This document shows positions 18,256 to 23,364 of a stretch of 36,648 nt of DNA, piece by piece. Below the pieces are notes generated by a model. That model saw nothing but the letters and a program-made list of their open reading frames with translations, was not told the DNA's origin and made no database searches. Source of the stretch: Candidatus Curtissbacteria bacterium (GTDB lineage Bacteria; Patescibacteriota; Microgenomatia; Curtissbacterales; GWA2-41-24); the NCBI GenBank assembly GCA_024654445.1, contig JANLHP010000014.1, positions 1 to 36,648 of the forward strand, read 5' to 3'. The first letter of the stretch is position 1; every line of letters starts with the position of its first letter. The translations under genes and the position numbers were made by a program.

Positions 18256-19515
18256 TTATATTTTCTCCGTCACTTTGGATTTAAGCTTGCCGTCTGCTAA
18301 TTTTACTCCAATTGTCGCTCCGACAACAACGCTCTTTGTGCTTTTTAGTATTTTCCCGTTTGCGTCAGTAGTTATCGAATAGCCCCTTGTGAGAGTATTG
18401 GTTGGAGAAAGAAGACTTAGAGATTTGTTGAGGTTTTGCAGTTCGCTTTTTTTGCTTTCCAACTGCAAGTAAATCTCACGCTGAATTTGTTTCATAAGAT
18501 CTTTGACTCTATTTTCTGCGTCCGCGATTAAGTATTTTTCGTGACGCTTAAGGGATTCCCTCGCACTACCCAGTCTATGCGGGAGATCTTTGAAGCTGAG
18601 CTTTGTTTGGTTGAGCTGCAAAAAAATGTAGTCGAGTTTTTGAAAGTTTTTGGAAAAATAATATGTTGAGATTGAGTTTAGTTTGTATTTAAGATTTTCG
18701 AGTGTAATTAAACAGCTGTTATAGCCGGTCGTAACTATGTTTGCGGCGTCTGTTGGCGTGGAAGCGCGTCTGTCGGCAACCCATTCGGCTAGTGACTCGT
18801 TGGCTTCGTGGCCAATCGCAACGATTGTCGGTGTTCGCATTTTAAATATTGCCCTGGTTACTTCTTCATCATTGAAAGCAGCCAAGTCTTCGATCGATCC
18901 ACCGCCTCGAGTAATTACGATTACATCGAATTTTTCATCGTCTACTCTAGGTAAAACTTTCAACAGGCTGGGGATTGATTTTGGACCTTGAACTCTAACG
19001 TCTGCGGTTGCAAGTTCGATAATCGGGAATTTGTCGACCGTGTGGCGTTTAAAATCGTTCCAGGCGTCAGAGCCTTCGGATGTTACTACACAAATTCTTT
19101 TGGGGTATTTTGGGATTTCCTTTTTGTACTTCTGGTCGAAAAGTCCTTCACCTTTAAGCTTTTTAATGAGTTCCTCAAGTTCTCTTTGCAGTAAACCGTC
19201 TCCCGCTTTTTCGATTCTTGTGATTCTAAACTGGTATTTGCCGAATGGTTCGTAAAGAGTGAGATTTCCGTACAAAAGAACCTTTTGGCCGACGAGATCT
19301 TCGTCTTCCAAATCCCTTAGTGTGAAACCTTCGGAGACGCATGGTAGAAGAGAGTTGCCGTCTTTAATGTCTAGATAATAGAAGCTCCAGTTTGGGTTCT
19401 TTTTAAAAGAAGAGATTTCACCTTCAACCCAAAAAACCATCTGCTCTAAGGTTTGTTTGGCGAAATAATTTACTTCGGAAATGGAATAGATGTCTCGGCC
19501 GTCAACGGTTTTCAT
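18256..19515 (-). CDS. xseA: Exodeoxyribonuclease VII large subunit
   Basis: XseA is the catalytic subunit of exonuclease VII. The 419 residues have an N-terminal OB-fold (YSISEVNYFAKQTLE, VEGEISSFKKN), a central catalytic domain with the family's GGGSIEDLAAFNDEEV and GHEANESLAEWVADRRASTPTDAA, and a long C-terminal coiled coil. A residual C-terminal beta segment (TRGYSITTDANGKIL) completes the family architecture. I choose the ATG at 19515. The frame stays open to a TTG at 19560, but the extra 15 codons come from a repeat-rich stretch. It probably forms a cluster with xseB, the EF-like gene and holA. Confidence 0.95.
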   Translation of the reverse strand: MKTVDGRDIYSISEVNYFAKQTLEQMVFWVEGEISSFKKNPNWSFYYLDIKDGNSLLPCVSEGFTLRDLEDEDLVGQKVLLYGNLTLYEPFGKYQFRITRIEKAGDGLLQRELEELIKKLKGEGLFDQKYKKEIPKYPKRICVVTSEGSDAWNDFKRHTVDKFPIIELATADVRVQGPKSIPSLLKVLPRVDDEKFDVIVITRGGGSIEDLAAFNDEEVTRAIFKMRTPTIVAIGHEANESLAEWVADRRASTPTDAANIVTTGYNSCLITLENLKYKLNSISTYYFSKNFQKLDYIFLQLNQTKLSFKDLPHRLGSARESLKRHEKYLIADAENRVKDLMKQIQREIYLQLESKKSELQNLNKSLSLLSPTNTLTRGYSITTDANGKILKSTKSVVVGATIGVKLADGKLKSKVTEKI

Positions 19516-19529
19516 ACCAATTAAAGGTA

Positions 19530-19609
19530 CCACGTGAATGAAGGGTACCACGGGTATCAAGGGCTCATTTTAACACTTGCTCGTGGTACTCGTGATACTT
19601 TTACAACCC
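19530..19609. repeat. Inverted repeats upstream of xseA
   Basis: GTACCACG (19536-19543) faces CGTGGTAC (19581-19588), and GTATCAAGGG (19554-19563) faces CCCTTGATAC (19600-19609). The two interleaved pairs make a foldable block. The CTTGATAC word also recurs near 2026-2059, so this may be a second, decayed dispersed repeat family. Confidence 0.5.
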
Positions 19610-19644
19610 TTGATACTCTTCGTATTTATCTTCATTTTGGGTAA

Positions 19645-19673
19645 TTGACAATGGATAATTTCGGAGCTACTAT
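19645..19673 (+). promoter_or_regulatory. Promoter of small RNA 1
   Basis: TTGACA (19645-19650), a 17-nt spacer, TACTAT (19668-19673, 4/6). The start of transcription is expected around 19680, directly at the base of the first hairpin. Confidence 0.6.
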
Positions 19674-19679
19674 GTTTTT

Positions 19680-19737
19680 TGCTTATCGCAAGATAGGCAA
19701 CCTGAAAGGGGCTTCTCGCAAGAGAGGCCTTTTTCTT
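19680..19737 (+). ncRNA. Candidate small RNA 1, two GCAA-capped hairpins
   Basis: Directly after the promoter, GCTTATC (19681-19687) and GATAGGC (19692-19698) pair around GCAA; TT/AA extends the stem if the start lies upstream. After a short CCTGAAAG linker, GGCTTCTC (19710-19717) and GAGAGGCC (19722-19729) pair around GCAA, followed by TTTTTCTT. The unit is about 58 nt and self-contained: promoter, hairpin, terminator. No open frame of any length fits it. Stem 1 keeps a G-U pair and the loop is a GNRA tetraloop. The terminator half is nearly identical to that of small RNA 2, so the two look like paralogues. Target unknown. Confidence 0.65.
19710..19737 (+). terminator. Intrinsic terminator of small RNA 1
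   Basis: An 8-bp stem GGCTTCTC/GAGAGGCC (one G-T pair) with a GCAA loop, then TTTTTCTT. Classic stem plus T-tract on the plus strand. Confidence 0.75.
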
Positions 19738-19783
19738 AGGTCAAACTGATTCCCTTTATTTTTGTCGGACCATCTAGCACCCT

Positions 19784-19813
19784 AAAATGTCAAAAGGGTG
19801 ATTTTGCCATTTT
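19784..19813. repeat. Hairpin between the two small RNA units
   Basis: AAAATGTCAAAA (19784-19795) and TTTTGCCATTTT (19802-19813) pair over 12 bp with one mismatch around GGGTGA. An alternative overlapping stem, CACCCT/AGGGTG (19779-19784 and 19795-19800), competes with it. The block sits directly upstream of the promoter of small RNA 2. Confidence 0.5.
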
Positions 19814-19819
19814 GCCCTG

Positions 19820-19848
19820 TTGACAGAAGAAGAAAATAGTATTATATT
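19820..19848 (+). promoter_or_regulatory. Promoter of small RNA 2
   Basis: TTGACA (19820-19825), a 17-nt spacer, TATATT (19843-19848, 5/6). The predicted start near 19855-19856 coincides with the first base of the first hairpin. Confidence 0.7.
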
Positions 19849-19855
19849 TCTTTTT

Positions 19856-19934
19856 GTTAACAGCAATGTTAACAAACTGCATACAGCAATGTATGCAACT
19901 GGAAGGGGCTTCTCGCAAGAGAGGCCTTTTCTTT
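19856..19934 (+). ncRNA. Candidate small RNA 2, three GCAA-capped hairpins
   Basis: Three consecutive perfect or near-perfect stems share the same tetraloop. GTTAACA/TGTTAAC (19856-19873), TGCATACA/TGTATGCA (19878-19897) and the terminator stem GGCTTCTC/GAGAGGCC (19907-19926) are each closed by GCAA, and TTTTCTTT follows. The promoter above predicts a transcript of about 79 nt starting at the first stem. The linkers are AAAC and ACTGGAAGG. Stems 1 and 2 differ in sequence from each other and from small RNA 1 while the loop is constant. That suggests selection on loop plus stem shape. It is not a recognised RNA family. It ends 17 nt short of the convergent gene at 19951. Confidence 0.7.
19907..19934 (+). 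terminator. Intrinsic terminator of small RNA 2
   Basis: Same stem, loop and T-tract as the terminator at 19710-19737 (GGCTTCTC-GCAA-GAGAGGCC then TTTTCTTT). The conserved block begins a little upstream, at CTGRAAGG. Confidence 0.75.
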
Positions 19935-19950
19935 ATTCTGTTGATATTCT

Positions 19951-20628
19951 TTAGAAAAAGTTTACTGTAGACACGACATCTTCAATTATCTTTTTGTTCA
20001 CCTTAACATTTTCTGCTTCTACTGTTTGGCTATAGGAAACAATCATTGGCTTTAACGGATCGAAAATCAGGTAAGTAGTCCTCGCGTACCCTCTGGCGGC
20101 TTGACCTTTGCCTGTTGCTGTTGCTTCAATTTTTTTAACTATTCTGCCGCCGACTTCTAAATCTTCTTGCCCAGTTACGTTATAAAAGTCGTTAGGATTT
20201 TCATGAAACTTAGAAGTGGTTTGCCATTCTTCGGGATTTACGACCTCTATTCTTATTGGCGAGGTGAAGTTTGTGAGGTCTTGTGGGACTACAAACGAAT
20301 ATGGCGCGTAAAAGTTACACTTTTGATCTTCGGTGTTGTAAGTAGTGAACCAATCTTTAGGGTAAGAAATTTCAAAACCGTAAACTGTGTTGGCGCACAA
20401 TTTTACGAAAGAAGAAAGGATCTTTGCGGATTGAGTGTCGGCGTAAGGAGCGGGGGACTCGATCGGTGTCGAAAAGGAAGAAGTTTGTTTGGTGGAAACT
20501 CCTTTGACTTTAATAAAATTTACGAGGCTGGAGCTTTTACCAAGTTGATAAAAGCCCGCCCCATAAATTATCAAAAATGCGAAAATTCCTAATGTTTTTG
20601 ACCTTTTCTTGAATTGGGCAAGTGTCAA
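19951..20628 (-). CDS. Membrane-anchored extracytoplasmic protein, PsbP-like shape
   Basis: The 225-residue protein has one N-terminal hydrophobic helix (about 13-28) after a basic start. A Ser/Thr/Pro-rich linker follows (about 45-65), then a globular domain that should lie outside the cell. The domain starts with YGFEISYPKDWF, a pattern seen in PsbP-like and related small lipoprotein domains of Gram-positive and Patescibacterial surface proteins. Two Cys (CANTVYG and QKCNF) could form a disulfide. The function is unknown. The TTG at 20628 is preceded by GAGGT at a usable distance. A TTGACA-N18-TATGCT promoter (20678-20649) precedes it with a 20-odd nt leader. No in-frame ATG precedes the hydrophobic helix. 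Confidence 0.75.
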   Translation of the reverse strand: MTLAQFKKRSKTLGIFAFLIIYGAGFYQLGKSSSLVNFIKVKGVSTKQTSSFSTPIESPAPYADTQSAKILSSFVKLCANTVYGFEISYPKDWFTTYNTEDQKCNFYAPYSFVVPQDLTNFTSPIRIEVVNPEEWQTTSKFHENPNDFYNVTGQEDLEVGGRIVKKIEATATGKGQAARGYARTTYLIFDPLKPMIVSYSQTVEAENVKVNKKIIEDVVSTVNFF

Positions 20629-22992: not shown

Positions 22993-23364
22993 TCAGGTAA
23001 TTTTGGACCGGATTGATTTCATAAGTCCGTTTAACAAATTACCAACGATTACTTGTTGCTGCTCAACTTCTTCGTATTCAGACCTTTTTATATAACCTAA
23101 GTCAGGAGAAAGTTCTAAGTAGTATTCAAGCTCAACTAAAGAACCATTAGAGGTGTTTAAGAACCTTAAAAAGTCTTTCTGTGATCTTTTTGCGTGTCCT
23201 TCTACAATGTTTCCTGGAATAGAAACTGCTGAGCGTCTCATTTGTGAGGTTAAAGCAAGAAGTTCAGATTTAGGAAAGTTCTCAGTAAGCTTGTATATCG
23301 TAAGGACTAGCTTGTGAGCTTCAGTCCATACTTGTAGTTTTTGATAGCCTTTTTCCGGTTTCAT
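22993..23364 (-). CDS. Four-helix-bundle (IVP-type, S23 rRNA intervening sequence) protein
   Basis: The 123-residue protein is a small four-helix bundle of the TIGR02436/S23 type: LQVWTEAHKLVLTIYKLTE, PKSELLALTSQMRRSAVSIP, NIVEGHAKRSQKDFLRFLNT, then SLVELEYYLELS. In some bacteria such genes lie inside 23S rRNA intervening sequences. Here it is a stand-alone gene, far from any rRNA. The family occurs widely in Patescibacteria and its role is unresolved. It lies 10 nt upstream of the DUF6504-like gene and may share a transcript with dinB. Confidence 0.88.
   Translation of the reverse strand: MKPEKGYQKLQVWTEAHKLVLTIYKLTENFPKSELLALTSQMRRSAVSIPGNIVEGHAKRSQKDFLRFLNTSNGSLVELEYYLELSPDLGYIKRSEYEEVEQQQVIVGNLLNGLMKSIRSKIT

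Follow-up and report, generated by a model that had tools for sequence, protein, structure and literature searches.

Candidate small RNAs built of GCAA-capped hairpins in a Candidatus Curtissbacteria genome: apparent members of a previously undescribed Microgenomates family

The boxB element of the lambdoid phages is a small hairpin with a GNRA-like fold that is recognised by a protein in N-protein antitermination. It is a single pentaloop hairpin located in an mRNA leader, whereas the two units that we describe here are arrays of hairpins, with their own terminator and with no gene following. Orphan small RNAs that combine a strong promoter and a terminator, and that can be present in several copies per genome, are known in the form of CsrB, CsrC, RsmY and RsmZ, and the units resemble them in these respects. 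Tandem RNA units have also been reported from phages and parasitic bacteria as the TIGR arrays of TIGR-Tas (PMC12045711). They are described there as guide arrays tied to Tas proteins, and no Tas-type gene was noticed among the neighbours of our locus.

The locus lies in a window of 36,648 nucleotides, by which we mean the whole stretch of DNA that was analysed (contig JANLHP010000014.1). A preliminary description, made from the letters of the window, knew no family with this layout, and this holds against Rfam 15: none of its 4227 families reached the gathering score on the units, only tRNAs reached gathering, and nothing usable appeared at E-values up to 1. The sole sub-threshold likeness over a whole unit was to BTnc231 (RF04180), a small RNA of Bacteroides, with 26.8 bits for unit 2 and 19.1 bits for unit 1, far below its gathering score of 80.4, and it probably reflects just the succession of hairpin and terminator. 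The 6S RNA model (RF00013) had no match in this genome and was positive in 5 of 14 control genomes; the small bacterial SRP RNA (RF00169) had no match in 32 Microgenomates genomes and was positive in 11 of the 14 controls. A crude motif scan for SRP-type GTPases, run without a positive control, gave none in 97% of genome G055 and 42% of this genome, and we record it only as a lead. We found no report of such RNAs in bacteria of the candidate phyla radiation in the literature. The two units look like two members of a previously undescribed Microgenomates small RNA family.

Anatomy, folding and base rates of the two units

The units follow each other on the + strand, between a divergent gene (xseA) and a convergent one, and the anatomy first proposed for them, with a TTGACA box, a 17-nt spacer and a -10 box in each, was confirmed. 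In unit 1, the -35 box TTGACA (19645-19650, +) is invariant in 12/12 family members, and the -10 box TACTAT (19668-19673, +), placed after the 17-nt spacer, is TATAAA or TATATA in relatives. Hairpin 1, TTGCTTATC-GCAA-GATAGGCAA (19679-19700, +), has a 9-bp stem that is retained in all family members and a loop at 19688-19691. The terminator, GAAAGGGGCTTCTC-GCAA-GAGAGGCCTTTTTC (19704-19735, +), has a 14-bp stem, a loop at 19718-19721 and a T-rich 3' arm. The predicted small RNA of about 57-60 nt (19679-19738, +) would have its 5' end at about 19679-19681, and it was matched at 19680-19738 by R1, a covariance model built from Curtissbacteria sequences only, with an E-value of 1.8e-17 (E-values are per genome, from a short calibration).

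Unit 2 has the same -35 box TTGACA (19820-19825, +) and, after a 17-nt spacer, the -10 box TATATT (19843-19848, +). Two hairpins with an A-U closing pair precede its terminator, namely hairpin 1, TTTGTTAACA-GCAA-TGTTAACAAA (19853-19876, +; 9-10-bp stem, loop at 19863-19866), and hairpin 2, TGCATACA-GCAA-TGTATGCA (19878-19897, +; 8-bp stem, loop at 19886-19889). The terminator itself, GGAAGGGGCTTCTC-GCAA-GAGAGGCCTTTTCT (19901-19932, +), has a 14-bp stem with its loop at 19915-19918. The candidate small RNA would measure about 80 nt (19855-19936, +), and R1 matched it at 19878-19935 with an E-value of 2.9e-16. A likeness of hairpin 2 to an insertion in the 23S rRNA gene of G055 (TACA-GCAA-TGTA) was judged to be a coincidence.

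A hairpin scan bore out that GCAA caps all five stems, two in unit 1 and three in unit 2, that the two units have a terminator in common, down to an identical 20-base core (GGCTTCTCGCAAGAGAGGCC), and that the other stems of unit 2 are quite different from those of unit 1. Two points of the preliminary description stood in part. The hairpins do start, overall, at the predicted transcription start, the first of them beginning about 6 nt after the -10 box in both units, but the first stem of unit 2 starts only about there. The figure of 390 bp for the non-coding gap requires xseA to start at the TTG at 19560, and an ATG near 19515 is its likelier start. No noteworthy reading frame was seen in the units, and nearly all of their sequence is paired, with only about 3-5 unpaired nucleotides between stems.

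The surroundings of the units can be described briefly. Upstream of unit 1 (19540-19640) lies a dispersed short repeat, with GTGRTACYC-like units in an inverted array, which recurs widely in relatives, with several copies each in G002, G007, G009 and G012. The convergent neighbour (19951-20628, -) is an open reading frame of 225 amino acids with no Pfam match, which adjoins the RNA in the loci examined. Further on (22993-23364, -), the window encodes a protein of the 23S rRNA intervening sequence family (PF05635, E 1.6e-36).

Unit 1 folds at -32.4 kcal/mol (z -6.6) and unit 2 at -39.6 kcal/mol (z -7.8), and none of the shuffled sequences was as stable as either unit. The strand is clear for unit 1, since conserved U-G pairs close its stems completely in the + strand RNA only, and the minus strand, at z -1.4, is hardly more stable than its shuffled versions. 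In unit 2, two stems are perfect Watson-Crick inverted repeats, and for this reason its minus strand folds too (z -4.0).

Base rates were taken over 434,547 bp, that is 42% of this genome, and over 795 kb, or 97%, of G055. On both strands of the window, no GCAA-capped stem of at least 7 bp occurs besides these five. The 434.5 kb contain 745 tetraloop hairpins with a stem of at least 7 bp, among which 36 are GNRA and 11 GCAA, and 5 of these 11 belong to this locus. Only three pairs of GNRA hairpins lie within 70 nt of each other, all of them here, and GCAA caps only 2 of 27 terminator-like hairpins, which are those of units 1 and 2. These counts rule out GCAA as the default loop of the genome or of its terminators, so that a general loop preference does not explain the locus. 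An ordinary gene terminator was likewise rejected, since both units possess a promoter of their own and additional hairpins, and GCAA is rare among terminators here. The promoter pattern TTGACA-16/18-TAnnnT occurs 35 times on both strands of the same 434.5 kb.

Conservation in Curtissbacteria and occurrence in other Microgenomates

A DNA search followed by R1 found unit 1 as one syntenic copy in 12 of the 15 genomes of the GTDB family, among them each of the 6 whose completeness is 90% or more. In G013 the RNA was not found and the contig stops just beyond the neighbour gene; in G001 and G012 neither the RNA nor the neighbour gene was found. Among the 12 members the mean identity is 100% in the -35 box, 85% in the -10 box and 96.6% in the RNA, and it falls to 52% in the promoter spacer and 29% in the downstream flank. 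The convergent neighbour protein is merely 44-50% identical in the three related genomes checked, and this difference from an RNA that is 96.6% identical across genera suggests that the RNA must serve a need of these reduced cells. Substitutions preserve the pairs, 99.6% of the alignment cells being paired across the family, and in one member the terminator loop has changed from GCAA to GAAA, which is still GNRA. A covariance search of relatives had been proposed as a check that could have shown hairpins lost or stems broken, and neither was seen for unit 1. Conserved promoter boxes, drifting spacer and flanks and stem-keeping changes together strongly support the view that these are small RNA genes.

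On sequence grounds, unit 2 is a paralogue of unit 1. It has no counterpart in the 14 other family genomes; G005 carries a different paralogue (L015) with compensating stem changes, and L055 in G004 is perhaps a degenerate one. That unit 2 has new stems and A-U closing pairs, and yet retains GCAA, suggests that the loops are selected for their identity. Unit 2 offers a natural experiment on the feature that is recognised.

RNAs with a similar organisation, consisting of a promoter, two to five mostly GNAA-capped hairpins and a terminator, were found by covariance models in at least three further Microgenomates families. R1 matched L057 (E 4.8e-8), L060, L061, L062 and L064 beyond Curtissbacteria; its matches L056, L065-L067 and L069-L074 seem to be chance hits or gene terminators. 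The second model, R2, drew on two families (f1 and f3) and matched 33 of the 38 genomes of f3 at an E-value of 0.01, and about 24 of these were accepted as real arrays after reading. It also found members in f16 and f29, while L116, L119 and L120 look like chance or gene terminators and L112 is doubtful. The best matches of a phylum-wide search outside the class were single terminators after genes, so we rejected a spread beyond Microgenomates; viral contigs held no exact match to the conserved terminator. L022, a match in Deltaproteobacteria, is a lone terminator-like hairpin. Three other sites are worth recording. L021 (JACOYE010000017.1, G254, f3) is a 4-kb contig with a Curtissbacteria-type terminator and an apparent Curtissbacteria neighbour reading frame, and is perhaps misbinned. 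A second f3 type of three-hairpin RNA, with A(GCAA)U loops and a GACCTCAGCAATGGGGTC terminator, is seen in G055 (C1, about 791.1 kb, -) and in L118. L059 (G346, f40) shows at about 1340-1557 a non-coding run of strong hairpins with several GAAA loops, possibly an unrelated array.

In nearly all members a -10 box starting with TA lies 16-18 nt from TTGACA or from a sequence close to it, and the predicted RNA begins at the first stem, even though the promoter is absent from the search models. The hairpins that lie 5' of the model match test the loop rule independently: 29 of their 38 loops are GNRA, against a genome-hairpin background of about 4.5%, and all 29 are GNAA (17 GCAA, 9 GTAA and 3 GAAA), with no GNGA or GGAA among the 38. 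A misplaced promoter (L061) or the doubtful member L112 accounts for some of the nine exceptions. Every accepted member has an extra hairpin 5' of the terminator. The context A(GCAA)U recurs in unit 2, f16, f29 and the second f3 array; closure as C(GNRA)G is usually the more stable of the two, and this recurrence therefore favours loop identity over mere stability.

Stem sequences differ completely from one family to another and also from unit 1 to unit 2, and the members of other families occupy different gene contexts. In f3 the last stem pairs at its base across the T-run, as CGAA/TTCG, CTAA/TTAG or CAAA/TTTG. Two-sided changes affect 22 of 23 pairs among 41 members from several families. 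In the 41-member alignment 95.7% of cells are paired, against 71% when shuffled and at most 57% when slid, figures that lean towards the structure to which this alignment was fitted. Common descent across families is likely, although it falls short of proof because R2 was built from f1 and f3 sequences together; homology between Curtissbacteria and the other families rests on layout and a weak sequence likeness, and GNRA loops can converge.

Possible functions of the RNAs

The reading that we favour, with a probability of roughly 0.45, is a stable RNA that is multivalent and would dock or titrate a putative partner binding GNAA hairpins. A strong sigma-70-type promoter would start the RNA at the foot of the first hairpin, and one to four closely spaced hairpins, mostly GNAA and above all GCAA, would be followed by a long terminator hairpin with a like loop. 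Once transcribed, the RNA would probably be abundant and stable. A single partner, either a protein that binds RNA or a component of the ribosome or of another RNP, may bind to its repeated GNAA-capped helices, and the RNA would hold or titrate this partner as CsrB/RsmZ hold CsrA/RsmE. Additional copies such as unit 2 would make more sites available. This docking reading is preferred because few bases are unpaired and stems are replaceable, and because a variable number of hairpins with a constant GNAA loop is what is expected of arrays of binding sites. A protein- or ribosome-binding decoy had already been suggested, and the loop pattern fits it. The competing set of GNAA hairpins in mRNA leaders, on the other hand, did not appear in a scan of 48.7 kb and 79.0 kb of non-coding DNA of this genome and G055, so that no mRNA regulon with a claim on that partner was seen. 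Apart from rRNA, tRNA, tmRNA and the RNAs described here, GNAA hairpins are not common in this non-coding DNA. The remaining GNAA hairpins of both genomes lie largely in or near rRNA, tRNA and tmRNA regions, and one may speculate that a partner normally meeting rRNA-type hairpins would fit this distribution. In G055 (C1, 486-501 kb) the rRNA genes are unusually long, with a 16S match of about 2170 nt and a 23S of more than 5 kb, and they carry apparent insertions, one of which has a possible homing-endonuclease reading frame. A Shine-Dalgarno decoy, pairing through AAGGGG with the anti-SD, was rejected since AAGGGG is not retained in other families.

The main rival to docking is a structural RNA, whose GNAA loops would contact helix grooves within the RNA, between copies, or in rRNA or RNase P. 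It would then be the core on which a constitutive RNP is built and not a decoy that titrates. The Curtissbacteria stems, nearly invariant like the loops and conserved beyond the needs of loop recognition, speak for such a core and against docking. Its occurrence in all six near-complete genomes, the distribution of GNAA hairpins just described, and the conserved outer arms (ACYTGT/ACARGT) and three-way junction folds of f3 point the same way. We nevertheless hold it to be rather unlikely, as no recognisable tetraloop receptor was identified and the stems are replaced wholesale from unit 1 to unit 2 and from family to family. A regulatory RNA that pairs with target mRNAs through its linker or loops would suit the size, the orphan promoter and the terminator, and the linker CTTGAAAGG is indeed conserved in Curtissbacteria; it is improbable, however, given that the handful of nucleotides between stems offers no unpaired seed, that the linker is not retained in unit 2 or in other families, and that Hfq (PF17209) had no match in 32 Microgenomates genomes, this one included. 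The lack of a seed and of a match to Hfq counts at the same time for docking.

A promoter and terminator merely insulating or buffering transcription between xseA and the convergent gene, with no role for the RNA itself, would explain a short transcript that ends at once between divergent and convergent genes, but not an RNA conserved far beyond the needs of termination, the extra hairpin of every accepted member, or the other gene contexts elsewhere, and we regard it as very improbable. Least probable of all is a leader or attenuator of a downstream transcript: five f3 members (L060, L089, L093, L094 and L098) do lie about 40 nt upstream of same-strand tRNA genes, but several others have no tRNA nearby, and at the Curtissbacteria loci that were examined, that of the window among them, a convergent gene comes next and neither a tRNA nor a same-strand gene lies downstream of the RNA.

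Implications and comparison with CsrB/RsmZ-type RNAs

More broadly, and tentatively, the GNAA-capped helices could belong to a lineage-specific Microgenomates RNP, in which they would bind a putative protein or ribosomal site, with the RNA present in most members of several families. If true, this would be an RNA-protein control or assembly system without counterpart in model bacteria. Being cheap to synthesise, the 57-nt RNA gives a handle with which a partner that binds RNA could be sought in a lineage that yielded no Hfq match.

When compared with CsrB and RsmZ, the units are much shorter and come from a different lineage, and they carry GNAA tetraloops instead of the ANGGA/GGA sites of CsrA, the five loops of the locus all being GCAA. 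What they share with CsrB/CsrC/RsmY/RsmZ is one conserved loop on hairpins that differ in number, together with stems that are free to vary. In sequence layout, the locus has the organisation, also found in CsrB/RsmZ-type RNAs, of a predicted orphan transcript with like-looped hairpins in variable number and its own terminator.
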